In this document: positions 648 through 42,645 of the stretch, piece by piece | Layout of the letters: each line of letters opens with the position of its first letter | Position numbering within the stretch: position 1 is the first letter of the stretch | Assembly (NCBI GenBank): GCA_902800625.1 | Contig: CADCFG010000009.1 | Span: forward strand, 62,001 to 126,000 | Length of the DNA stretch: 64,000 nucleotides | From: an uncultured Eubacteriales bacterium | GTDB taxonomy: Bacteria > Bacillota > Clostridia > Christensenellales > Aristaeellaceae | Direction of reading: 5' to 3' | Translations under genes and position numbers: made by a program | The notes under the pieces: generated by a model | What the model saw: the letters and a program-made list of their open reading frames with translations, nothing else | Databases searched by the model: none | Told to the model about the DNA's origin: nothing

Positions 648-1937
648 TCACTCAACCCGGATCTCCCGCACCGCGGCGCCGTCGCGCCTGGCGATCTGGG
701 CCAGGTCGTCAAACTCCGGCTTGACGCGCTCGACGCCATAGCCGAAGGAGCGCTTGGCCCGCACAGGGCCGTGGGAGGTGTTCAGGGTGACGGCCTCGCG
801 GTCCAGGGTGTAGCGCCGCAGGGTCTGCGCGCGCACGCCGATGGTGGTGGTGTGCCTGAGCATCAGGGCGGCGAAATCCCGCTCCCGTTCGCCGCCGCAC
901 AGGCAGGAGAGCTTCGTGCCCGGGCGGCCCTTCTTCATCTGGATGGCCTCCGTCCACACGTCCAGCGCCCCGGCGTCCCGCAGCACATCCGCGGCAAAGG
1001 CGATCTCCTCGCCGGTCATGTCGTCCAGGTTGCAGCACAGCTCAACGACCTCGCCCGCCGCCTCGTCCGTCTCGCCCAGCATCGCGCGCACGCAGTTGGC
1101 CCATTCAAAGTCCTTGGTGCCCATGCCGTAGCCGATCTTCTCAACCGACATGGCGGGTATGGGGCCGAAGGCCGTCGCGAAGTGCTTCAGCAGCGCAGCG
1201 CCGGTGGGGGTACACAGCTCGCCGCGGATCGCGCCGCCGTAGATGGGCACGCCCGCGAGGATCTTCGCCGTGGCCGGGGCTGGCACGGGCAGCACGCCGT
1301 GGGCACAGCGCACCTGGCCGCTGCCCACGTGCACGGGCGAAACCACGATCTTCTCCGGCGCGATCTCCGCCAGCAGCGCGCACACGCCCACCACGTCGGC
1401 CACCGCGTCCAGCGTGCCCACCTCGTGGAAGTGGATGTGTTCCACAGGCGCGCCGTGCACCTCCGACTCCGCCTTCGCGATCAACCCGTACACCGCAGCC
1501 GCGTCCGCCTTCACCTTCTCCGACACCGGCAGGCCGTCGATGATGGCGCGGATGTCGCTCAGGTGGGCGTGGTGGTGATGGTGAGCGTGGGGCTCAGAGT
1601 GTTCATGCTCATGGTCGTGATGATCGTGGTCGTGATGATCGTGGTCGTGATGATGCTCATGCTCATGGCCGTGATCGCGATCATGATCGTGATGGTGTTC
1701 ATGCTCGTGGTCGTGCACGTCCTCGCTGACCTCTTCCTCGCCGTCCACGGTCACGGCGATGTGGGTGCCGGTGACGCCGCACTTCACGGCGCTCTGCCGC
1801 TCAAAGCGCACGCCGGGGATGCCCAGGGCATTCATGCGGTCGATGAAATCCCCGGGGTTGTCGATCAGCTCCGACAGCGCGGACATCAGCATGTCCCCTG
1901 CCGCGCCCATGTTGCATTCGATGTAAAGTGTCTTCAT
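648..1937 (-). CDS. larC: LarC, nickel insertion enzyme for the nickel-pincer cofactor
   Basis: LarC (DUF111 family) is the CTP-dependent cyclometallase that puts nickel into the pyridinium-3,5-bisthiocarboxylate mononucleotide cofactor of lactate racemase. The 429-residue protein begins MKTLYIECNMGAAGDM, typical of LarC, at ATG 1937 with GGAG 8-9 bases upstream; an in-frame extension to 2030 lacks this. Residues about 75-125 form an insert with roughly 29 histidines alternating with Asp and Glu, a plausible nickel store. In Lactobacillus plantarum LarC is made by a frameshift between larC1 and larC2; here the frame is continuous. It follows larE and larB on the same strand. No larA is present in the window. 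Confidence 0.93.
   Translation of the reverse strand: MKTLYIECNMGAAGDMLMSALSELIDNPGDFIDRMNALGIPGVRFERQSAVKCGVTGTHIAVTVDGEEEVSEDVHDHEHEHHHDHDRDHGHEHEHHHDHDHHDHDHHDHEHEHSEPHAHHHHHAHLSDIRAIIDGLPVSEKVKADAAAVYGLIAKAESEVHGAPVEHIHFHEVGTLDAVADVVGVCALLAEIAPEKIVVSPVHVGSGQVRCAHGVLPVPAPATAKILAGVPIYGGAIRGELCTPTGAALLKHFATAFGPIPAMSVEKIGYGMGTKDFEWANCVRAMLGETDEAAGEVVELCCNLDDMTGEEIAFAADVLRDAGALDVWTEAIQMKKGRPGTKLSCLCGGERERDFAALMLRHTTTIGVRAQTLRRYTLDREAVTLNTSHGPVRAKRSFGYGVERVKPEFDDLAQIARRDGAAVREIRVE
1560..1720. repeat. His/Asp codon tandem repeat inside larC
   Basis: Short direct repeats of the type TGATCGTGGTCGTGATGATC run through this stretch. On the minus strand they encode the HDHDHHDH-type insert of LarC. 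They keep the reading frame and are coding, not a separate element; length variation between strains would be expected. Confidence 0.85.
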
Positions 1938-2026
1938 TTCATTTCTCCATTGTCGATATTTACAGCGGGCCGCGTTCCCTTGAAAGGGAAACATGGCGGC
2001 ATGGTCGCCGCCGCCGCAGGCTCGCG

Positions 2027-2068
2027 CCACTATTCCTACTCCCTACTCCCTATTCCCTAATCCCTCCA
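2027..2068. repeat. Pyrimidine-rich intergenic repeat (TACTCCCTACTCCC type)
   Basis: Tandem ACTCCCTA units lie at the junction between larB and larC. Similar tracts occur at about 23499-23545, 31523-31562 and 45205-45237, each beside a gene end. In two of these a purine-rich partner upstream allows a hairpin. Function unknown. Confidence 0.6.
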
Positions 2069-2807
2069 TCTGGTTGATCCGGTTGGCCAGGAACCCGGCC
2101 CCAAAGCCGTTGTCGATGTTCACCACGCTGATGCCGCTGGCGCAGGAGTTCAGCATGCTCAGCAGCGCGGACAGTCCGCCGAAGTTGGCCCCGTAGCCTA
2201 CGGAGGTGGGCACGGCGATCACCGGGCAGTCCACCAGCCCGCCGATGACGCTGGCCAGCGCGCCCTCCATGCCCGCCACGGCCACCACGGCCCGGGCCGC
2301 CTGCAGCTGATCCATGCGGGAAAGCAGCCGGTGCAGCCCCGCCACGCCCACGTCGTACAGGCGCGTGACCCGGCTGCCCAGGCACTCGGCGGTCAGGGCG
2401 GCCTCCTCGCAGACGGGCAGGTCGCTGGTGCCGCCGGAGGCCACCACCACGCTGCCCACCAGCGGTCTTTTCACTTTATTGGCGATGCCCACATGGCTGA
2501 GTTCATCGTAGAACAGCGGCGCGGACTTCGCCACGAACGCCGCCTTTTCCCCGTCCATGCGGGTGATGAGTATGTTCTCGCCCCCCGCCGCGAGCATGCG
2601 CTCCACGATCCCGGCGATCTGCTCCGCGGTCTTGCCCGCGCCGTAGATCACCTCGCCGGAGCCGTTGCGCAGGCCGCGGTGGTGGTCGATCTTGGCATAG
2701 CCGATGTCCTCATAGGGGGCCTGGACGAACAGGCCCAGCGCCGCCTCCGGGGTCATGTCCCCGGCCTGCACCGCCTTCAGGGCGGCGAGAAGTTGATCCC
2801 GATTCAT
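2043..2807 (-). CDS. larB: LarB, pyridinium-3,5-biscarboxylate mononucleotide synthase
   Basis: LarB carboxylates and hydrolyses nicotinic acid adenine dinucleotide, the first step of nickel-pincer cofactor synthesis. The 254-residue size is usual. Seen: an N-terminal helical part ending YAKIDHHRGLRNGSGEVIYG, then a PurE/AIR-carboxylase-like half with VVVASGGTSDLPVCEEAA, VAGMEGALASVIGGL and VPTSVGYGANFGG motifs typical of the family. ATG at 2807 has GGAGG nearby. It lies between larE (45 bases upstream) and larC (about 105 bases downstream) on the same strand, so the three probably form one operon, larE-larB-larC. Confidence 0.93.
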   Translation of the reverse strand: MNRDQLLAALKAVQAGDMTPEAALGLFVQAPYEDIGYAKIDHHRGLRNGSGEVIYGAGKTAEQIAGIVERMLAAGGENILITRMDGEKAAFVAKSAPLFYDELSHVGIANKVKRPLVGSVVVASGGTSDLPVCEEAALTAECLGSRVTRLYDVGVAGLHRLLSRMDQLQAARAVVAVAGMEGALASVIGGLVDCPVIAVPTSVGYGANFGGLSALLSMLNSCASGISVVNIDNGFGAGFLANRINQMEGLGNRE

Positions 2808-2852
2808 ATATGACCCTCCAGAAGGAGAAACGGCCTCTTCCGTGACTTCATC

Positions 2853-3620
2853 CTATCTTTCCTTCAAATCCAAAAGCACCGTCTCGAACCAGGGCAGAAG
2901 CGCCTTCCGGATTGCCTCGCGCCCCTCCACGGCCCGCGCCAGCTGGTCGGCGGGCAGCTGCAGCCGCGCGGCGCCGTTGAAGAGGCGCACGCGAAAGTCG
3001 GTATAGCCCAGGTCGAACAGCGCCGTCTCCGCGCCCTCCACCCGGGAAAGCATTTCCTGGGTGATGGCCGTCCCGGCGGGGATCCGCGTGGCCAGGCAGG
3101 CATAGGCCGGCTTGTCCCAGGTGAACAGCCCGGCCTCACGGGAAAACGCGCGCACCTGCGCCTTGGTCACGCCGCAGAGCCGCAGCGGCGACAGAACGTT
3201 CAGCTCCTTGAGCGCGCGCATGCCCGGGCGGTCCCCGGCGTCGTCGGAGGCGTTGGTGCCGTCCATGACGGCGGCATAGCCATCCCCCCGGGCGGCGTCG
3301 AGCAGCGCGGTAAATATGGCCTGCTTGCAGTAATAGCAGCGGTTTTGCGGGTTTGCCCGCACCGCCTCCACAGACAAAACGTCCAGCGGCACCTCCACCA
3401 TGTCCGCGCCCAGCGTCTCCGCCAGGCGGTGGGCATCAGCGCGCTCAAAGGCGGGCTGGAAGGCCGAGCGGGCGTAGTAGGCCCGCACGTCGCAGCCGCA
3501 GGCGATGGCGGCATACAGCAGGTAGCCGCTGTCCACCCCACCGGAGAAGGCCAGCGCCAGCCGGGGTTGTTCCCGGAAGAAGGCCTGCAGCGCGTCCGGC
3601 ACGGCGATGGTTGGTTTCAT
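2853..3620 (-). CDS. larE: LarE, sulfur transferase for the nickel-pincer cofactor
   Basis: LarE turns the two carboxylates of the LarB product into thiocarboxylates. It has 255 residues with a PP-loop ATP-pyrophosphatase motif FSGGVDSG at 25-32. Cys175, in YACLATRIP, sits where the sacrificial cysteine (Cys176) of the Lactobacillus enzyme lies. In addition C95 and C98 form CYYC, so the protein has the three-cysteine pattern of LarE homologues that hold a [4Fe-4S] cluster and act catalytically instead of sacrificing their own cysteine. It is the first gene of the lar set. The iron-sulfur assignment is inferred from these cysteines only. Confidence 0.92.
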   Translation of the reverse strand: MKPTIAVPDALQAFFREQPRLALAFSGGVDSGYLLYAAIACGCDVRAYYARSAFQPAFERADAHRLAETLGADMVEVPLDVLSVEAVRANPQNRCYYCKQAIFTALLDAARGDGYAAVMDGTNASDDAGDRPGMRALKELNVLSPLRLCGVTKAQVRAFSREAGLFTWDKPAYACLATRIPAGTAITQEMLSRVEGAETALFDLGYTDFRVRLFNGAARLQLPADQLARAVEGREAIRKALLPWFETVLLDLKER

Positions 3621-3704
3621 GGTGATTCCCCTCAGTTTGATTTACCGTAATATCATATCACATTGCTCGGATAATTGCAACGCAGTCATTCGACGGAACA
3701 TAAA

Positions 3705-3797
3705 AGATCCTTCGACTCCGCTGCCGCTCCGCTCAGGATGACAGACAAAGCGTATGTCATTCTGAGCGAAGGCGCAGCCGGAGTCGAAGAATCCGCA
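3705..3797. repeat. Palindromic intergenic repeat, CTTCGAC/TTCTGAGC family
   Basis: A left arm ATCCTTCGACTCCGC..GCTCAGGATGACA and a right arm GTCATTCTGAGCGAAG..GGAGTCGAAGAATC are reverse complements and would fold into a long hairpin. Related copies lie at 17331-17525 (fragmented), 42666-42738, 44125-44242 and 46356-46475. All are intergenic. No coding capacity. Confidence 0.85.
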
Positions 3798-3825
3798 TTT
3801 TATCCGATTGTCGCTGTCCCGGTCA

Positions 3826-5421
3826 TCAGCCCGCCACGTTCAGCGTCACGGGCACGCGGGTGGTCAGCTGGGCCTCGCCCTTGTCGTCCACCACGGTGGT
3901 GACGGCCATGGCCTGGTGAGTGCCGGGCTCCAGGGGCTTGTCCAGGGTGATGCCGTCCAGCGTCTCGCCGGGCTTCACGTTGGTGAGGAACACAGTCTCG
4001 CCATCGTCCAGCACCAGGCTGAGCAGGGCCATGTTGCCGGACAGGTCGCTGTTGGTGTACTGCCAGCTGGCGGTCACGCCGTCCTCGGCCACTTCGATGG
4101 CGTTGTTCACGGCGGTGGCGATGTGGGCCTCGCCGCTGGCGGGATCGCGCTGCACGTGATAGGCCTCCACTTCTTTCAGGCTCTTTTCGTAGGTCGCCTG
4201 GGCGTCGGCCAGCTCGGTGCTCTTGGCCTCGGCATCGGCTTCGGCGGCGGCGAGCTGTTCCTGCAGGTCGGCAAGCGTCGCGGCGTCGGTCTCAGCCTGC
4301 TCTCCCAGGGCCTCAATCTGCGCGTTCAGATCGTCGATGGTGTCCAGCTTCTCCACCAGCTCGCCGGACAGCTGCTCCACCTCGGCCTCGGCGGCCTCCA
4401 GCTGCGCCTGCACCTGGGCCACATCGACTTCGGCTTCCGCGGTCTCCTCGGGCAGTACCTCGGTCAGCTGCTGCTCGATGGCCTGCAGGGCCTCAACCTG
4501 CTCCTCGGCAGTCTTGGTTTCGTCCTCCATGATGGCGGCCACATCCGCCTTCAGGGCCTCCGCGTCCACGGCGGCCACGGCCTCGGGCACCTCTTCCGCC
4601 GCCTGCAGGCCGCTCAGCTGCACCAGCTTGTTCTCCACCTTGGAAACCGCGGTGGTCAGCTCTTCCTTATCCTCGCTCTTGGCCTCGGTATCGCTCTTGG
4701 TCTCGGTATCGCTCTTGGCCTCGGTATCGCTCTTGGTCTCGGTATCGTCGCTCTTGGCATCGGCGTCGGCACCGGCTTCAGGCTCGGGCTTGGCTTCGGT
4801 CTCGTCCTTGGCGGCGTTCAGCGCCTCGATGGTCGCGTCCTTCTCGGTAACCGCGGTCTCCAGTTCGGTGATCTTCGCCGTGGCTCCCTCGGCGGCGGCC
4901 TTGAGCGTCTCGATGTCGGCGTCCTTGGTCTGGACAGTGGTCTCCAGCTCGGCGATCTTCGCCGTGGCTTCCTCGGCGGCAGCCTTGAGCGTCTCGATGT
5001 CGGCGTCCTTGGTCTGGACGGCGGCCTCCAGCTCGGTGATCTTCGCAGAGGCTTCCTCGGCGGCGGTCTCCAGCTCGCTCACCCGGCCGTTGGCGGCGTC
5101 CAGGTCGCCCTGCAGCTGCTCGGCGGCGGCCTTGCCGCTCTCCACCTCGCCGGTGAGGGTCTCCACGCTGGCCTGGGCCTCGGTCAGCTTGCCGCTGACA
5201 TCCTCATAGTCCGTGCGGGCGGTCTCCAGGTCCGCCTTGGTGGCGTCCAGATCCGCCTGCAGGGCCGCGGAGTTCTCCTGCTCCTCGGTCAGCTGCGCCA
5301 TGGTATCGGACAGGGTCGCCTTGCTGGCGTTCAGCTTGTTGTTGAAAAACAGTATGGCTGCGATGGCCAGCACCAGCAGCACCAACAGCACGATCTGCCA
5401 GATTTTGCTTTTGGAATTCAT
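3826..5421 (-). CDS. Membrane-anchored coiled-coil protein of unknown function
   Basis: I do not recognise a family. The 531 residues start with one transmembrane helix (about 8-27) followed by a very long alpha-helical coiled coil rich in Glu, Ala and Lys. Near-identical 28-residue units, KDADIETLKAAAE-type, occur three times. A central hydrophilic tract repeats KSDTEAKSDTET. The last ~100 residues look like a small beta-rich domain (YHVQRDPASGEAHIATAVNN to LTTRVPVTLNVAG), likely outside the cell. A role as an envelope spacer or scaffold is a guess from shape only. It is flanked by a palindromic repeat downstream and mnmA upstream on the same strand. Confidence 0.8.
   Translation of the reverse strand: MNSKSKIWQIVLLVLLVLAIAAILFFNNKLNASKATLSDTMAQLTEEQENSAALQADLDATKADLETARTDYEDVSGKLTEAQASVETLTGEVESGKAAAEQLQGDLDAANGRVSELETAAEEASAKITELEAAVQTKDADIETLKAAAEEATAKIAELETTVQTKDADIETLKAAAEGATAKITELETAVTEKDATIEALNAAKDETEAKPEPEAGADADAKSDDTETKSDTEAKSDTETKSDTEAKSEDKEELTTAVSKVENKLVQLSGLQAAEEVPEAVAAVDAEALKADVAAIMEDETKTAEEQVEALQAIEQQLTEVLPEETAEAEVDVAQVQAQLEAAEAEVEQLSGELVEKLDTIDDLNAQIEALGEQAETDAATLADLQEQLAAAEADAEAKSTELADAQATYEKSLKEVEAYHVQRDPASGEAHIATAVNNAIEVAEDGVTASWQYTNSDLSGNMALLSLVLDDGETVFLTNVKPGETLDGITLDKPLEPGTHQAMAVTTVVDDKGEAQLTTRVPVTLNVAG
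4675..4755. repeat. In-frame tandem repeat encoding KSDTE(A/T)
   Basis: Units of GCCTCGGTATCGCTCTTGG recur several times with small changes and encode the KSDTE-rich hinge of the coiled-coil protein on the minus strand. They are coding and keep frame. Confidence 0.75.
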
Positions 5422-5514
5422 AGAACAGCCTCCCCGTATTGTTTTACATACTTCTAATCATATTATAGCATGAAACGCCGCCCGTGAACAGCCCCCCGGA
5501 CAACTTTTTATGCA

Positions 5515-6588
5515 TCAAATATCGTCGATGATCGCGCCGCCCAGGCAGACCCGGTCCTGATAGAACACCGCGGACTGGCCGGGGGTCACGGCGCGCTGCG
5601 CCACGGGAAATTCCATGAACGCCCGGCCGCCCTTCAGCGTCAGCCGGCAGTCCTGCAGCGGCTGGCGGTGGCGCAGGCGCACCTGGCAGTCATACGTCGC
5701 GCCCTCCCCCGCCGGCGGATGGCCCGCCAGCCAGGTCAAGTCGCTGCCGACGGCCTCGTGGCTGTAGAGCAGCGCCTCGTCCTCGCCCTGGTGCACCACC
5801 AGCACGTTGTTCTTCAAATCCTTCTTCACCACGAACCAGCGCTGGCCGTTGCCGCCCCCGCCGATGCCCAGGCCCCGGCGCTGGCCGAGGGTATAGTACA
5901 TCAGCCCGTCGTGGCGGCCCACCACCTTGCCGTCGGTGGTCACCATGTCCCCCGGCTGGGCCGGCAGGAAGCCGGACAGGAACTGCTTGAAGTTGCGCTC
6001 GCCGATGAAGCACACGCCGGTGGAGTCCTTCTTCTCGCTGACGGGGATGCCTGCGTCCCGGGCGATCTGGCGGATCTCGCCCTTCATCAGCCCGCCCACC
6101 GGGAACAGGGCCTTCGACAGGGCCCGCTGGTCGATCATGTACAAAAAGTAGGTCTGGTCCTTGTTCTCGTCCGCCGCCCGCAGCAGCCGGTACTCGCCGT
6201 CCACCCGGTCGATATTGGCGAAGTGGCCGGTGACCAGCTTCTGGGCGCCCAGCTCCTCGGCGAAATCCAGGAACACATTGAATTTGATCTCCCGGTTGCA
6301 CAGCACATCCGGGTTGGGCGTGCGGCCCTTCTTGTACTCCTCCAGGAAGTGATCGAACACCCGCTCGCGGTACTGCCGGGCGAAGTTCACGGAATAATAG
6401 GGAATGTCCAGCTTGTCGCACACGGCGCGCACGTCGGCCCAGTCGGCCTCGCTGGTGCAAACGCCGTTTTCGTCCTTTTCCTCCCAGTTCTTCATGAACA
6501 CGCCGATCACCTCGTGACCGGCCCGCTTCATCAGCAGCGCCGCCACCGAGCTGTCCACGCCGCCGGACATGCCAACCACCACGCGCAT
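5515..6588 (-). CDS. mnmA: MnmA, tRNA 2-thiouridylase
   Basis: Uses ATP and a persulfide to thiolate U34 of tRNAs for Glu, Gln and Lys in the cytoplasm. It has 357 residues, the family's usual size. Seen: PP-loop GMSGGVDSSVAALL at 6-19, the NPDVLCN motif carrying the first catalytic cysteine, the GVCFIGERNFKQFL motif carrying the second, and a C-terminal beta-barrel (CQVRLRHRQP). ATG at 6588 gives the standard MRVVVGMSGGVDS start. It stands alone between unrelated genes; no sulfur-donor cysteine desulfurase is adjacent. Confidence 0.97.
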   Translation of the reverse strand: MRVVVGMSGGVDSSVAALLMKRAGHEVIGVFMKNWEEKDENGVCTSEADWADVRAVCDKLDIPYYSVNFARQYRERVFDHFLEEYKKGRTPNPDVLCNREIKFNVFLDFAEELGAQKLVTGHFANIDRVDGEYRLLRAADENKDQTYFLYMIDQRALSKALFPVGGLMKGEIRQIARDAGIPVSEKKDSTGVCFIGERNFKQFLSGFLPAQPGDMVTTDGKVVGRHDGLMYYTLGQRRGLGIGGGGNGQRWFVVKKDLKNNVLVVHQGEDEALLYSHEAVGSDLTWLAGHPPAGEGATYDCQVRLRHRQPLQDCRLTLKGGRAFMEFPVAQRAVTPGQSAVFYQDRVCLGGAIIDDI

Positions 6589-6719
6589 ATCGTCACCTCA
6601 CAATGATTTCCGGCGAAGTTCTGCATCCTCCGCCGGACCGCGCAACCGCTCGCTGCGCTCGCCGGTTCGCTAATCATTCAAAATTACAGCGGCAGCGCTT
6701 GCGCCGCCGCTGCGGATTA

Positions 6720-7283
6720 TTACGATACCAGCACCTCGGTCTCCAGGCCGCCTTCGTCGCCCTCGGGCTCCACCAGCACGGTCTTCTGCTGCATGCCGAT
6801 GATCTTCCACTCGCCGCCAACCTTTACCAGCGTCACGTCGTACCGGCCACCCACCCACTTGGGGATCCGCTCGGAAACCTCGCTGCGGCGGGAGGAGATG
6901 ACGCTGCCGTTGATGGTGGGCACGCGCTCCACCACGGTGCAGTTGGCATAGCTGTCCCAGGGCCAGGCCCACAGCTTTTCGATGGTCAGCTGATAGTCAA
7001 AGCCGGTGATATTGTAATCGGAATAGGCGCTCATGCCGTTCAGCGCGCCCTCCAGCGCCTCGTCCGCGATCAGGAAATCGGCGTGGAAATACTTGTTCAA
7101 CTCCTCGGCTTGCTGGCGGGTGAGGATCACGTCCACCCGCTTCTCCATGCCTTCGTTCAGCACCACATAGATGTTGGCGCCGTTCAGGGCCATGAAGAAG
7201 CCGCATACCAGCATGCCCAGAAGCACGCAGATCAGTATCATCTTCCCGGCAACAAACCAGGTAAAGCGGCGAATGTATTGCAC
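6720..7283 (-). CDS. Small membrane protein, last gene of the MotA/MotB-like operon
   Basis: Unrecognised 187-residue protein. One N-terminal transmembrane helix (about 13-34, LICVLLGMLVCGFFMAL) precedes a soluble domain that ends GRYDVTLVKVGGEWKIIGMQQ, a strand pattern common in NTF2-like folds; I give that only as a possibility. It starts four bases after the OmpA-like gene on the same strand, so it is almost certainly co-transcribed with it and with the MotA-like genes upstream. If that operon is a motor or a defence system, this is a candidate accessory part. Confidence 0.75.
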   Translation of the reverse strand: MQYIRRFTWFVAGKMILICVLLGMLVCGFFMALNGANIYVVLNEGMEKRVDVILTRQQAEELNKYFHADFLIADEALEGALNGMSAYSDYNITGFDYQLTIEKLWAWPWDSYANCTVVERVPTINGSVISSRRSEVSERIPKWVGGRYDVTLVKVGGEWKIIGMQQKTVLVEPEGDEGGLETEVLVS

Positions 7284-7287
7284 GGTA

Positions 7288-8313
7288 TCAGTCTCCTGTG
7301 TTTTCCAATATATTCTTCAGCTGCTGGATCATCTGCTCGTCGGTGAGGCGGAACTTGAACACCACGCGGCGGGAGGCGTCCATGTCCTCCAGGCCGTTGG
7401 CGTCCAGCACCGGATCACTGAAGGAGCGGCCATTGGCCGTGGTCACCTTGCGCAGCTGCTTTTTCTGGTCGGCGGTAATGGCCCGATAGCCGTCGTCCAG
7501 CACGTAGCTGGCCACCGCCAGGGCGCGCTGCTGGGACAGCTCCAGGTTGTCGATGTAGCTGCCCAGGGAGTCGGTATGGCCCTCGATGATGATCTCGGAC
7601 ACGTAATCCCGGTACTCGTCGGAGAACAGCACGTTCAGGTAGACCGGCAGGAAGCGGTCGATGAAGGCCTCGCCTCGGTCGGACAGGTTGTACCGGCCCA
7701 GCTCGAACAGCACGTCGCTCTCCAGGGCGATGGAGCCGTTGGTGGGGTCCACCTGGGCGGAGATGTTGGCCTCCTTCAGCGCGCTGGACAGGGACGTGAT
7801 GATCCGGGTGCGCAGGCCCACCAGCGCCTCCAGCTGCTGCTGCTGGTCGTCCAGGGCCTTCTGCTGGGCGTCGATCTGGGTCTGCTGGTTGCCCAGCTGG
7901 ATGCTCAGGGCGTCCAGCTGCTCCTGTTGGGCGGCGATCTCGTCTTCCTTTTCCTCAAGCAGCGACTGGGCCTCGGCAAGCTCTTCCTGCTGGGCAGCCA
8001 GAATCTCCTGGGCGTCGTCCAGGTCGGACTGGGCGGCATTCAGCCGGATCTGCTGGGCCACCATCTGGGCCTCGGCGGCGGTGAGCTTGGTCTTCTGCTC
8101 GTCCAGCGAGGCGTTGGCCTGGTCCAGGTCGTACTGCTGGCGGGCGATCTCCGCCATGTTGATCTCATACATATCGAAATACTGATACATGATGTAGAAC
8201 ATGATCAGTATGAATATCAGCAACAGCGCGCTCATCAAGTCCGAAAAGCTGAGCCACTGCACCCCGCTGCCCCCCGGGCGGCGATGGGATACGCGTTGGC
8301 GCGTGTTTCGCAT
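7288..8313 (-). CDS. MotB/OmpA-like peptidoglycan-binding membrane protein (ZorB-like)
   Basis: Stator-type partner of a MotA-like channel. The 341 residues contain a short basic N-terminus, one transmembrane helix (SFSDLMSALLLIFILIMF, with the aspartate that in MotB/ZorB carries the ion), a long Gln/Ala/Leu coiled coil and a C-terminal OmpA domain with EIIIEGHTDSLGSYIDNLELSQQRALAVASY split over its motifs. ATG at 8313 has AGGAAG 8 bases upstream; an in-frame extension to 8418 runs through a structured repeat and is unlikely. The long coiled coil separates it from classical flagellar MotB. Downstream of the MotA-like pair. Confidence 0.87.
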   Translation of the reverse strand: MRNTRQRVSHRRPGGSGVQWLSFSDLMSALLLIFILIMFYIMYQYFDMYEINMAEIARQQYDLDQANASLDEQKTKLTAAEAQMVAQQIRLNAAQSDLDDAQEILAAQQEELAEAQSLLEEKEDEIAAQQEQLDALSIQLGNQQTQIDAQQKALDDQQQQLEALVGLRTRIITSLSSALKEANISAQVDPTNGSIALESDVLFELGRYNLSDRGEAFIDRFLPVYLNVLFSDEYRDYVSEIIIEGHTDSLGSYIDNLELSQQRALAVASYVLDDGYRAITADQKKQLRKVTTANGRSFSDPVLDANGLEDMDASRRVVFKFRLTDEQMIQQLKNILENTGD

Positions 8314-8335
8314 GGGATACTTCCTTTCAGCATAC

Positions 8336-8542
8336 TTGCCGGGAGTATCGGGGGCGGCAGCGCCCCGATGTTCGATCGTTGTCGGCGACATGCGCGGCGA
8401 CAACGGGGCTTTTTTCACGCCGGGAAACCTGTCGACCAGAGTGAAAAAAGCTGCCTTGCAGATTTTGTGGCCGGAACCCTTCAGGGTTCAAACAAAATCT
8501 GGAGGGGGTGGCAGTGGCGGGGGAGCTTGCTCCCCCGTCCAC
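8336..8542 (-). repeat. Structured intergenic element, copy A (possible RNA)
   Basis: About 205 bases with five hairpins: 8347-8369, 8377-8384 with 8398-8405, 8408-8418 with 8441-8451 (11 perfect pairs), 8459-8468 with 8492-8501 (10 perfect pairs) holding an inner GAACCC/GGGTTC, and 8518-8526 with 8529-8537. A second copy lies at 29800-30008. Many paired positions differ between copies yet still pair. Here it begins six bases past the stop of the coiled-coil tail gene and ends before the MotB-like start, so it is transcribed within an operon on the minus strand. Confidence 0.85.
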
Positions 8543-32942: not shown

Positions 32943-33230
32943 TCAATAGTGGTCGAAGGTCGCCTTGTCCTCGACGAACTCCAGGATCTTGCCGCGCAGC
33001 TTCTCCACCTGGGGCAGGGCCTGGTATTCGGCCACCTGGCTCTCCTTCTCCAGCTCGAAGGACGCCATCAGGTCGAAGCTGGCCCCGGTGCCCTCGCAGC
33101 GACGGCAGACCATGGGCCGGTTCAGCCAGTCCAGTTCGTCGTCCAGCTTGCGAAACGTCTTCATGATCTTCTCCTGGATCTCCACCGGGTCCGTACCGGC
33201 CTTGAGCTTGATGAGCATGATGTGTTTCAT
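32943..33230 (-). CDS. Dabb-family stress-responsive A/B-barrel protein
   Basis: A 95-residue single-domain protein, MKHIMLIKLKAGTDPVEIQ to VEDKATFDHY, with the dimeric alpha/beta-barrel pattern of the Dabb family. These are small cytoplasmic proteins of mixed or unknown function. ATG 33230 has GGAGG close upstream. It follows the HPr-LDH fusion gene by 41 bases on the same strand and may share its transcript. Confidence 0.85.
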   Translation of the reverse strand: MKHIMLIKLKAGTDPVEIQEKIMKTFRKLDDELDWLNRPMVCRRCEGTGASFDLMASFELEKESQVAEYQALPQVEKLRGKILEFVEDKATFDHY

Positions 33231-33271: not shown

Positions 33272-34573
33272 CTATGCCCTGACCTCCGCCGCGCCCAGGT
33301 CGACGCCCTCGTTGAAGCGGCGGGCGTTTTCCAGCGTCTCGGCGGCGATGGCCTGCAGCGCCTCCCGGGTGAAGAAAGCCTGGTGGGAGGTCATCACCAC
33401 ATTGGGGAACATCTGCAGCCGCGCGGTCACGTCGTTGTTCAAAAACTCGGTGGAGCGGTCGGTGTACACGTTGGCGTCCTCGCCCTCGTACACGTCCAGG
33501 CCCACGGCGTGGAACTTGCCGCTCTTCAGCGCGTCGATCAGCGCCTCGGTGTCGATGAGTCCGCCCCGGGCGGTGTTCACCAGCATGGCGGTGTCCTTCA
33601 TGCGGGCGATGGCCGCGGCGTCGATCAGGTGGTATGTGCCGCCGGGGCCGTCGATCAGCGGCGCGTGCAGGGAGATCAGGTCCGAGCGCTCCAGGAGCTC
33701 CTCCCAGGGCACGTAGCTCAAAAGGCCCTCCTCCTCAAGCGCCCTGTTGGGATAGGCGTCCCAGGCGATCACCGACATGCCGAAGCCCTTGCAGATGCGG
33801 GCCATGCACTGGCCGATCTTGCCCGTGCCCACGATGCCTGCCACCTTGTTGTGCAGGTCAAGGCCCAGGAGACCCGACAGCGCGAAGTTGTTGTCCCGCA
33901 CCTTGTTCACGGCCTTGTGCAGGCGGCGGTTGGCGGTCATGACGAGGCTCATCGCGTGCTCGGCCACGGCATAGGGCGAATAGGCCGGCACCCGGGCCAC
34001 CTTGATGCCCCGCTCCTTGCAGGCCTGCAGGTCCACGTTGTTGAACCCGGCGCAGCGCAGCAATATCAGCCGCACGCCGACCTCCGCCAGCGTCTCCACC
34101 GCCGCCCGGGGCAGCTCGTCGTTCACGAACACGCACACCGCGTCGAAGCCCCTGGCCAGGTTGGCGGTCTCCGGCGTCAGGCGGCAGCTGTAGTACTTGA
34201 TGGAGCAGTTGTAGGTGCCCTCGCCCCGGTCCCTGGCCAGCTCGCTGAAGAACAGCCGGTCGTAGTCATGGGTGCCGAAGAAGGCGATGTGCAGGAGGGG
34301 CGTCCTGCGCCTGTCCCACATCTTCTCCCGCAGCACGCGGTACACCTCGTTCAGCGCGGCCTGCTCGTCGCCGCCCTCGGCGCAGATCTCCAGCACCGCG
34401 CCCTTCCCGGCGCGCAGGGCGAGCAGCTCCAGCACATTGGAGCCGCTGGCGGTCCGGCCGTCGTACTTCACGGTGATCTGGGAGGCCAGGCCCACACAGG
34501 TCTGGGCCAGGAACGCCGCCGGGCGGGCATGCAGCCCCAGCGCGCCGGTGACTTCATAATTCATGATGGTCAT
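33272..34573 (-). CDS. HPr-like domain fused to D-lactate dehydrogenase
   Basis: A 433-residue two-domain protein. Residues 1-88 align without gaps to PTS phosphocarrier HPr: the phospho-acceptor His falls exactly at position 15 in LGLHARPAAF, and KG at 57-58. Position 46, the regulatory serine of HPr, is Asn (GSN, with Ser at 45). Residues 93-433 are a D-2-hydroxyacid dehydrogenase of the D-lactate type: GxGxxG at 249-254, NAD-ribose Asp272, catalytic Arg336 (NTARGG), Glu in DVYEGE (361-365) and His397 (TSHQAFFT). Start ATG 34573 has GGGGA eight bases upstream. Pyruvate-to-D-lactate activity is likely; phosphorylation by PTS enzyme I is inferred. Confidence 0.9.
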   Translation of the reverse strand: MTIMNYEVTGALGLHARPAAFLAQTCVGLASQITVKYDGRTASGSNVLELLALRAGKGAVLEICAEGGDEQAALNEVYRVLREKMWDRRRTPLLHIAFFGTHDYDRLFFSELARDRGEGTYNCSIKYYSCRLTPETANLARGFDAVCVFVNDELPRAAVETLAEVGVRLILLRCAGFNNVDLQACKERGIKVARVPAYSPYAVAEHAMSLVMTANRRLHKAVNKVRDNNFALSGLLGLDLHNKVAGIVGTGKIGQCMARICKGFGMSVIAWDAYPNRALEEEGLLSYVPWEELLERSDLISLHAPLIDGPGGTYHLIDAAAIARMKDTAMLVNTARGGLIDTEALIDALKSGKFHAVGLDVYEGEDANVYTDRSTEFLNNDVTARLQMFPNVVMTSHQAFFTREALQAIAAETLENARRFNEGVDLGAAEVRA

Positions 34574-34683
34574 GGTGAACTTCCCCTTTGTCTCCTTAGC
34601 TGTCATTTTACTATATTTCCGCCGGAAAGTAAAGCAAACCGGCGCGCCTGATTCGCGTTTTTCTTCAATATAATTTCAGTCAA
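34574..34683. other. Divergent intergenic region, HPr-LDH and rnf
   Basis: AT-richer spacer between two divergent transcripts. No repeat or small ORF is evident. An in-frame extension of the HPr-LDH gene to 34606 is possible but lacks support. Confidence 0.5.
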
Positions 34684-39846: not shown

Positions 39847-42645
39847 ATGGAAAAAAAGACGATAACCAAGCTGGTCGCCTCCGCGGCGATCCTGGGCCTG
39901 TCGGTCTGGGGCGCCAGCGGATGGGTGGGCGGCCACGACGTGGCCTATCAGAAGCCCGGCCCCTATACCGCCGAGGCCACCAATGATTTCAGCACCGTGC
40001 AGGTGGACGCGACCATCAAGGGCCAGGAGATCACTGACTGCGTCATCACCTCCTCCGGCGACAACGACCTGATGACCGACGCCATCCGCCAGGAGTGGGC
40101 CCAGGCCATCGTCGACGCCCAGTCCGCCGACACGGACGTGATCACCGGCGCGAGCCTGAAGTTCTCCGCCGCGTCCGTGAAGGAGTGCGTGGACGACATC
40201 CTCGTCCAGGCCGGCATCAAGGACGCCAGCGAGATCGAAGCGCCCGCCGAGGCGCCCTCGGAAAAGGCCCCCGCCGAGGTTGAAGAGCCCGCGACGGAGG
40301 AAGGCGCCGATGCGCCCGCGGAGGCCGGGGCCTATGCCGACGGCAGCTATTCCGCCGAGGCCGCCAACGATTTCAGCACCGTGAAGGTGGACGCGACCAT
40401 CGAGGGCGGCAAAATCGCCGACTGCGCCATCACCTCGTCCGGCGACAACGACCTGATGACCGACGCCACCCGCCAGGAGTGGGCCCAGGCCATCGTCGAC
40501 GCCCAGTCCGCCGACGCGGACGCCATCACCGGCGCGACGCTGACCTTCTCCGCCGCTTCCGTGAAGGAATGCGTGGATGACATTCTCGCCCAGGCCTCCG
40601 GCGATACTGGAACGCCCGCCGAGGGCAGCGACGATGAGCGCATCGCCGAGCTGGAGGCGCGCGTGGCGGAGCTTGAAGCTGCCGCCAGCCAGGCCGAGGC
40701 CCGCGTCGCCGAGCTGGAGGCTGCCGCCGCCAGCGGCATCAGCGTGGACGCCATGAAGTACATGCGCCCGCGTCCGGTGTTTGAGGCAGCAGCTTCCATC
40801 GAGGAAGCACCCGCTGAGGAAACCGCTTCCGAGGACAGCGCGGTCGAGGCCGACCCCGCCATGAAGTACATGAGACCCAGGCCCTCCTTCGCCGCTGGTT
40901 CCGCCGAGAAAGCCGAGGAAGCGCCTGCCCAGGACAGCGCAGCCGAGGCCGATCCCGCCATGAAGTATATGCGCGAGCGTCCCGCCTTCGCCGCCGCTTC
41001 CGCTGAGGAAGCATCTTCCGAAGGCAGCGCGGTCGAGGCCGATCCCGCCATGAAGTACATGCGCGAGCGCCCCGCCTTCGCCGCGGCTTCCACCGGGGAA
41101 GCCGCGGAAGCAACCGACGAATCCCCCGTCGCGTCCGCCGACGCCATGAAGTACATGCGCCAGCGTCCCGCCTTCGCCGCGGCTTCCGCCGAGGAAGCGC
41201 CCGCCGAGGAAGCGACCGACGAATCCCCCGCCGTGTCCGGCGACGCCATGAAGTACATGCGTGAGCGTCCCGCCTTCGCCGCGGCTTCTGAAGAGGAAGC
41301 GTCCGTTGAAGAAACGGCCGACGAATCCCCCGCCGTGTCCGCCGACGCCGTGAAGTACATGCGTGAGCGCCCCGCCTTCGCCGCGGCTTCTGAAGAGGAA
41401 GCGCCCGTTGAAGAAACGGCCGACGAATCCCCCGTCGCATCCGCCGACGCCATGAAGTACATGCGCCAGCGTCCCGCCTTCGCCGCGGCTTCTGAAGAGG
41501 AAGCGCCTGCCGAGGAGGCCGCCGAGGAAGCATCCGCCGAGGAAGCCGTCGAAACGGCCTCTGCCGACGCGGACCTGTCCGCCGCCCTGCCCGCCATCGT
41601 GGTGTCCATGGGCGCAAACAGGGAGAACAGCTACGTGACGGACTACCTGGAGCAGGACCCCTACCTGGTGAACATCTACGAGGGCTACGGCTTCGCCAAG
41701 GACTACGGCAGCGCCCGCGGCCACGAGTACACCCTGGAGGACGTGGCCAAGACCCAGCGCCCCCATCCCAAGGCCAACTGCCTGACCTGCAAGACGCCGG
41801 ACTTCCACAAGCTGGTGGAGCAGGAGGGCCTGGGCGTTTACTCCATGCCCTTTGACGACGTGATGGCCCAGATGACCACCAACATCAACTGCTACACCTG
41901 CCACGGCGACGACGCGGGCAACGGCGGCGCGCTGGTGGTCACCCACCAGTATGTGAACGAGGCCCTGGGCGGGAACGTGGGCACCATCAACCCCGCCACG
42001 CTGTCCTGCGGCCAGTGCCACATCGAATACTACTTCACCCCCTCCGACAGCGAGACCATGATGCCCTACGACAGCGTCGAGGCCATGGCTCCCGAGGCGA
42101 TCCTGGCCTACTACGACAAGATGGACTTTGCCGACTGGACCCAGGAGAGCACCGGCACCCGGCTGCTCAAGGCCCAGCACCCCGAGATGGAGACCTTCCT
42201 GGCCGGCAAGCACGCCAATTTCCTGTCCTGCGCGGACTGTCATATGCCCATGGAGACCACGGACACCGGCGTGGCCTATCACAGCCACGAGCTGGTCAGC
42301 CCGCTTCAGAGCGAGGCGCTGCTTCAGACCTGCGCCGCCTGCCACCGGGACACCGACATGGTGGAACTCGTCCACGGCATCCAGGAGAAGGTCACCGCCC
42401 GGGAGACCGAGGTGGGCAACAAGCTCAGCGGCATGAAGGACAAGCTGGCCGAGGCTGTGGCCTCCGGCACCTGGTCCGAGGAGGACCTGAACGCCGTGCG
42501 CACGCTGCACCGTCAGGCCCAGTGGTACTTTGACTTCTGCTACGTGGAGAACTCCGAGGGTGCGCACAACAGCGAGCTGGCCATGCGCTGCCTGGACACC
42601 TCCGACGCGCTGATCGACGAGGCCCTCAAGCTGCTGGACAAGTAA
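39847..42645 (+). CDS. FMN-binding domains fused to pentaheme NrfA-type cytochrome c nitrite reductase
   Basis: A 932-residue exported protein. N-terminal signal/anchor (about 8-28). Two FMN_bind domains: residues about 38-118 with ITGASLK at 99-105 and about 165-250 with ITGATLT at 227-233; only the second keeps Thr at the usual flavin-acceptor place. A short coiled coil (about 262-292) follows, then eight repeats of MKYMR(P/E/Q)RPAFAAAS in an acidic Ala/Glu/Pro linker (298-574). Residues about 578-932 are NrfA: CLTCK at 645 (lysine-ligated active heme), CYTCH 682, CGQCHIEYYF 721, AQHPEMETF then CADCHMP 795, CAACH 829. It likely reduces nitrite to ammonium, or a related oxyanion, with electrons from Rnf via flavins. 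Confidence 0.93.
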   Translation: MEKKTITKLVASAAILGLSVWGASGWVGGHDVAYQKPGPYTAEATNDFSTVQVDATIKGQEITDCVITSSGDNDLMTDAIRQEWAQAIVDAQSADTDVITGASLKFSAASVKECVDDILVQAGIKDASEIEAPAEAPSEKAPAEVEEPATEEGADAPAEAGAYADGSYSAEAANDFSTVKVDATIEGGKIADCAITSSGDNDLMTDATRQEWAQAIVDAQSADADAITGATLTFSAASVKECVDDILAQASGDTGTPAEGSDDERIAELEARVAELEAAASQAEARVAELEAAAASGISVDAMKYMRPRPVFEAAASIEEAPAEETASEDSAVEADPAMKYMRPRPSFAAGSAEKAEEAPAQDSAAEADPAMKYMRERPAFAAASAEEASSEGSAVEADPAMKYMRERPAFAAASTGEAAEATDESPVASADAMKYMRQRPAFAAASAEEAPAEEATDESPAVSGDAMKYMRERPAFAAASEEEASVEETADESPAVSADAVKYMRERPAFAAASEEEAPVEETADESPVASADAMKYMRQRPAFAAASEEEAPAEEAAEEASAEEAVETASADADLSAALPAIVVSMGANRENSYVTDYLEQDPYLVNIYEGYGFAKDYGSARGHEYTLEDVAKTQRPHPKANCLTCKTPDFHKLVEQEGLGVYSMPFDDVMAQMTTNINCYTCHGDDAGNGGALVVTHQYVNEALGGNVGTINPATLSCGQCHIEYYFTPSDSETMMPYDSVEAMAPEAILAYYDKMDFADWTQESTGTRLLKAQHPEMETFLAGKHANFLSCADCHMPMETTDTGVAYHSHELVSPLQSEALLQTCAACHRDTDMVELVHGIQEKVTARETEVGNKLSGMKDKLAEAVASGTWSEEDLNAVRTLHRQAQWYFDFCYVENSEGAHNSELAMRCLDTSDALIDEALKLLDK
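40741..41570. repeat. Eight in-frame repeats of the MKYMRxRPAF unit
   Basis: GCCATGAAGTACATGCGC-type segments recur eight times at intervals of about 84-105 bases within the flavin-NrfA gene. They keep frame and vary mostly in the acidic spacer. The repeated basic-aromatic motif between acidic spacers is of unknown role. Confidence 0.9.

Follow-up and report, generated by a model that had tools for sequence, protein, structure and literature searches.

A lactate dehydrogenase with a built-in HPr domain: a possible link between sugar import and D-lactate formation in gut and rumen Bacillota

Lactate build-up matters in the rumen and gut, and HPr regulates a few enzymes through transient binding, a kind of interaction that is difficult to study. 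In Vibrio vulnificus, glucose leads dephosphorylated HPr to bind PykA, and the Km of that enzyme for phosphoenolpyruvate (PEP) falls (PMC5987630). HPr is already known fused to other domains of the phosphotransferase system (PTS) (PMC2405797), and sigma-54 activators with HPr domains have been described in Clostridiales (PMC6615313). The D-lactate dehydrogenases (D-LDHs) of Fusobacterium nucleatum and Pseudomonas aeruginosa are tetrameric, allosteric enzymes enhanced by effectors, fructose 1,6-bisphosphate and Mg2+ among them (PMC4230899). Here we describe a gene that joins an HPr domain to a D-LDH of this kind in one polypeptide. It lies in a 64,000-nucleotide stretch (the window) of contig CADCFG010000009.1 from an uncultured Eubacteriales bacterium.

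The fusion gene and its two halves

The HPr-D-LDH gene occupies 33272..34573 of the minus strand, as do all of its parts given below, and encodes 433 residues plus a stop codon. The initial annotation had placed it correctly, with no mention of the strand. Its frame opens with the ATG at 34573, closes with the stop codon at 33272-33274 and contains no internal stop. A second possible in-frame ATG lies 11 codons earlier, at 34606, and would yield a 444-residue form; the motif AAAGGGG stands about 9 nt upstream of ATG 34573, and matches to most other fusions begin near this latter codon, from which residues are numbered. An N-terminal HPr of about 85-88 residues is followed by a short and variable linker and then by an entire D-LDH of the tetrameric, allosteric LdhA class. 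With the 444-residue form, the Pfam family PTS-HPr (PF00381) scored 65.9 bits against a cut-off of 23, and 2-Hacid_dh (100.4 bits) and 2-Hacid_dh_C (166.3 bits) were both far over theirs; the NCBIfam HPr model TIGR01003 was passed at 58.5 against 47.9. These matches, within one open frame, bear out the earlier proposal that an HPr domain is fused to an intact D-LDH. HPr and 2-Hacid_dh were the only Pfam domains in the protein, the EI and EIIA domains of multi-phosphoryl-transfer proteins not being found.

The HPr domain (residues 1-85, 34319..34573) was modelled by AlphaFold2 with pLDDT values of 91-95 and with the strands and helices in HPr order. Read directly from the DNA, residue 15 is a histidine within GLHARP (codon CAT, 34529..34531), the predicted site of phosphorylation by enzyme I (EI), and residue 46, the position of the HPr-kinase serine, is an asparagine (codon AAT, 34436..34438), both as first annotated. 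Across 54 fusions, Gly13, His15, Ala16, Arg17, Ala20 and Ala23 are invariant, the histidine being encoded by CAT in 32 and by CAC in 22; position 46 holds Asn in 50, Asp in two, Arg in two and Ser in none. Over 15 close fusion pairs the dN/dS of the HPr half ranged from 0.04 to 0.52 and lay below 0.16 in 11. The linker (residues 86-93, 34295..34318) drifts, variable in sequence and slightly so in length. Across families, selection on the HPr half is purifying, and its residues indicate that it is kept as a working HPr: the family match, the fold and the pair His15 and Arg17 are all present, and what it lacks is the Ser46 of Gram-positive HPr and Crh. That serine does not define the family, because many free clostridial HPrs are also without it.

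The D-LDH half (residues 94-433, 33275..34294) begins where unfused enzymes begin, their starts (MKIAFF or similar) falling exactly at the end of the linker. Arg336 (33566..33568) and His397 (33383..33385) are invariant and Glu365 (33479..33481) nearly so; the catalytic roles of these three residues, and the NAD-binding role of Asp272, which is likewise present, we take from what is known of the D-LDH family. A full-length 2-Hacid_dh fold nearest to verified D-LDHs, the catalytic Arg/Glu/His and the NAD-specific Asp place this half in the LdhA class. The closest solved structures are those of P. aeruginosa LdhA (5z20/6abj, 48% identity) and then the F. nucleatum D-LDH, and by analogy the fused enzyme would reduce pyruvate to D-lactate as a tetramer. 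In alignments, the fused enzymes carry two insertions and many clade-specific residues. The first insertion, of five residues (EGTYN, residues 118-122, 34208..34222), occurs in 52 of 52 fused LDHs and is absent from 87-96% of 46 unfused ones; the second, of three residues (308-310, 33644..33652), occurs in all 52 and in none of the 46. Either adaptation to the HPr domain or ancestry alone may account for these features.

Neither an L-LDH/MDH-family gene nor a second LdhA-class D-LDH was found in this genome, which is 94.8% complete; altogether, 29 of 44 carriers yielded no L-LDH/MDH-family gene. The fusion is thus apparently the sole fermentative LDH of this genome.

Distribution, origin and the loss of Ser46

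The combination of PTS-HPr with 2-Hacid_dh, for which a search had been suggested at the outset, recurs in at least about 54 of the 84,980 species genomes searched, a lower bound taken from the best 80 loci. Every complete fusion has a single open frame, with the exception of the frame-broken L072. Most carriers are Bacillota of the rumen and gut, among them bacteria closely related to this one, Lachnospiraceae, Oscillospiraceae and Erysipelotrichaceae/Solobacterium; those with species names include Faecalibacillus faecis, F. intestinalis, Mitsuokella multacida, M. jalaludinii, Selenomonas bovis and S. montiformis, and isolates of Mitsuokella, Selenomonas and Faecalibacillus are among them. 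The fusion is nonetheless rare, being present in three of 398 genomes sampled evenly across the phylum, this genome counted.

In a tree of LDH halves, all 52 fused rows fall into a single clade (support 100/100), separate from the 46 unfused rows. Because of this single clade, the fusion is concluded to have arisen once, with patchy transfer between classes among gut Bacillota thereafter; independent fusions in different lineages are ruled out by the same result.

The genome encodes an HPr kinase. The free HPr of the genome (L001) combines His15 with Gln46, and two further proteins, the Crh-like L003 and L004, have Ser46 and no His15. The roles of HPr are commonly divided in this way in the carrier Clostridia, between proteins with His15 and Lys or Gln at position 46 and Crh-like proteins with Ser46 alone and Glu, Asp or Thr at position 15. 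Carriers of the Selenomonadaceae and Erysipelotrichia have a free HPr of the usual His15/Ser46 form. In an HPr tree built from only 90 columns, and therefore of limited resolution, the fusion domains group together (81/77) and are joined with the His-only clostridial HPrs (96/94), even where the host is a Selenomonad or belongs to the Erysipelotrichaceae. Since these sister HPrs were already without Ser46, its loss most likely predates the fusion, and an origin of the loss as an adaptation to the fusion is rejected on the same ground. The initial annotation had supposed that the enzyme is blind to HPr kinase. This is probably right, given a kinase in the genome and no Ser46 in any of the 54 fusions, but the property was inherited and is no special feature of the fusion.

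Possible control through His15 and competing explanations

The absence of EI from the genome had been named in advance as grounds for discarding PTS control of the enzyme; EI was found here, and also in 40 of the 44 carrier genomes searched, nearly all of which have a free HPr as well. In this genome an EIIBCA gene (617 aa) stands beside an intact EI gene (560 aa) on contig C1, apart from the fusion. Four sister species (L038-L041) have an uninterrupted same-strand series of genes for EIIBCA, EI, HPr-LDH and a protein with a Dabb (A/B barrel) domain; EI and the fusion are about 165-190 bp apart there, and no separate ptsH lies within the cluster. The window retains HPr-LDH followed by the Dabb gene (32943..33230, minus strand), an adjacency seen in six members of the genus, and has no EIIBCA-EI pair beside them. 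RnfC lies upstream of EIIBCA in L038 and L041 and upstream of the fusion in the window; the EIIBCA-EI pair has thus been moved or lost here, or else was inserted in the sister loci. Species of the genus that have no fusion show the orders EIIBCA-HPr-EI or EIIBCA-EI-Dabb, ptsH being missing from the cluster in some. The small Dabb-domain protein follows PTS genes or the fusion throughout the genus, whether or not the fusion is present (L038-L041, L156, L157, L164). The free HPr of this genome is encoded in an ascorbate-type PTS cluster, not beside ptsI (L155, G000:C9:146000-162000, about 1740-8486); the cluster also holds EIIA_2, EIIC-GAT, a lactonase-like protein and a DeoR-like regulator, and its type denotes a presumed substrate.

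We lean, by a modest degree, towards a D-LDH with a built-in PTS sensor, in which EI would phosphorylate His15 and the phosphorylation state would set LDH activity. Indirect support comes from the invariant His15 and Arg17, from EI in this genome and most other carriers and from the gene order EIIBCA-ptsI-(HPr-LDH). Because the fusion is real, arose once and has been kept in more than 50 genomes, sugar transport probably controls lactate production directly in the carriers. EI and PEP would phosphorylate His15 of the N-terminal domain, and during sugar import EIIBCA, or exchange with free HPr, would drain this phosphate. The change in phosphorylation would alter how active the fused LDH is, an enzyme allosteric by nature, the HPr domain acting in cis as a separate HPr does on V. 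vulnificus PykA. Under sugar influx, with HPr dephosphorylated and a low PEP/pyruvate ratio, the LDH would be favoured and surplus pyruvate would pass to D-lactate; when sugar is scarce, His15 would be phosphorylated and the LDH held back. Asn46 would leave the domain beyond the reach of HPr kinase as a switch. The direction, with the dephosphorylated form active, is the least certain step and is proposed because of the PykA precedent and because it makes metabolic sense. The broader proposition is about evenly balanced: that the D-LDH is itself part of the PTS relay and couples import to lactate in one protein insulated from HPr kinase, a form of covalent HPr control not described before that has passed by gene transfer between bacteria of the rumen and gut.

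Several observations weigh against such control. EI was not found in four of the 44 carriers (G118, G126, G134 and G135), genomes whose completeness is not reported and some of which are probably incomplete metagenome assemblies; in G135 no free HPr was detected either. Outside the genus, no PTS gene adjoins the fusion and there is no conserved neighbour. A conserved operon across all carriers was accordingly rejected, since neighbours there vary and the gene looks free-standing. Gln replaces the catalytic Glu365 in L080 and L088, which are among the most divergent fusions, and for this reason their activity may differ. AlphaFold2 models both domains confidently in the protein studied here (mean pLDDT 86, pTM 0.73) and gave similar values for the Mitsuokella multacida fusion (mean pLDDT 83, pTM 0.72), but at a pTM of 0.72-0.73 the mutual placement of HPr and LDH is unreliable, and contact between the domains is not supported.

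The strongest competitor, though unlikely, is that the HPr domain serves primarily as a phosphocarrier for EIIBCA and EI, and that the LDH is joined to it so that the two are co-expressed or present in equal dosage, allosteric control playing no part. In keeping with this idea, a separate ptsH is missing from all four EIIBCA-EI-(HPr-LDH) loci, several fusion-free sister species having EIIBCA-ptsH-EI, and the free HPr of this genome is placed in the ascorbate-type cluster instead. Against it, nearly all carriers possess a free HPr, and some fusion-free species likewise have no ptsH in that cluster; the insertions and many residues specific to the fused LDHs look, moreover, as if this half had adapted to the HPr domain.

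Rather improbable is a role in localisation or channelling, whereby the HPr domain would dock the LDH on EI or on a membrane EII, near the point at which pyruvate is released from PEP. EI does make pyruvate, the substrate of the LDH, HPr binds EI and EIIA in established PTS biochemistry, and the gene order in the sister species is compatible with docking. Pyruvate diffuses fast, however, and is mostly made elsewhere, and no sequence feature specifically favours docking. Slightly more doubtful again is a dead structural add-on: although His15 has been lost from some HPr-like proteins of these genomes, GxHAR with His15 and Arg17 is intact in 54 of 54 fusions, and purifying selection acts on the HPr half across families. 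That an assembly error or frameshift joined two genes is ruled out for practical purposes even though most carriers are metagenome-assembled, since about 54 independent genomes, some of them from isolates, share the architecture in a single open frame and their LDH halves are monophyletic, so that neither chance nor frame error can account for it.

A further set of HPr-like frames was seen among the carriers. In Selenomonadaceae, the frame of a sigma-54 activator next to ptsH-ptsI also matches HPr (L119, 1-1215, and the frames of 563-583 aa with HPr matches in G130, G131, G132, G136 and G141). Elsewhere in the window, downstream of the Rnf genes, the plus strand encodes a 932-aa protein (39847-42645) that combines an FMN-binding domain with about seven tandem repeats of 102 bp each (KYMRxRPAFAAAS units) and a cytochrome c552 domain (NrfA-like nitrite reductase).

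Comparison with known systems

As the initial annotation had anticipated, no HPr-LDH fusion was found among 5.39 million open-access papers, the scope of this comparison, with subscription papers and preprints lying outside it. The fusion makes the HPr interaction permanent in what is apparently the only LDH of the cell. It offers a clean, testable system for the steering of pyruvate by the PTS, and a point of entry to the formation of D-lactate in rumen and gut. If PTS control through His15 is true, a covalently joined fermentation enzyme would be added to the HPr partners already listed, which are transporters, regulators and PTS proteins.

The LDH half shares with LdhA-class D-LDHs a common fold, the catalytic Arg/Glu/His, the NAD site and identities of 48%, 46% and 45% (P. 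aeruginosa, F. nucleatum and Escherichia coli, respectively), and differs from them in its N-terminal HPr, two insertions and many clade-specific residues. The HPr half resembles its sister group, the His-only free HPrs of clostridia, in fold, in the GxHARP site and in the lack of Ser46; unlike a free HPr it is covalently joined to a metabolic enzyme, and it is only about 35-44% identical to the nearest one. As with V. vulnificus PykA, the phosphorylation state of HPr is proposed to set activity at the pyruvate node, but PykA is bound by a free-standing HPr, and the HPr here is built into the enzyme. In FPr, DhaM and the EI-HPr-EIIA fusions HPr is also one domain of a larger protein, whose other domains belong to PTS phosphotransfer, whereas the partner here is a redox enzyme outside the PTS. 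The HPr-sigma-54 activators of Clostridiales likewise use HPr as a regulatory input module, with transcription as the output in place of the catalysis predicted here. The parts, and the principle that the state of HPr controls an enzyme, are known; the covalent form appears to be new.
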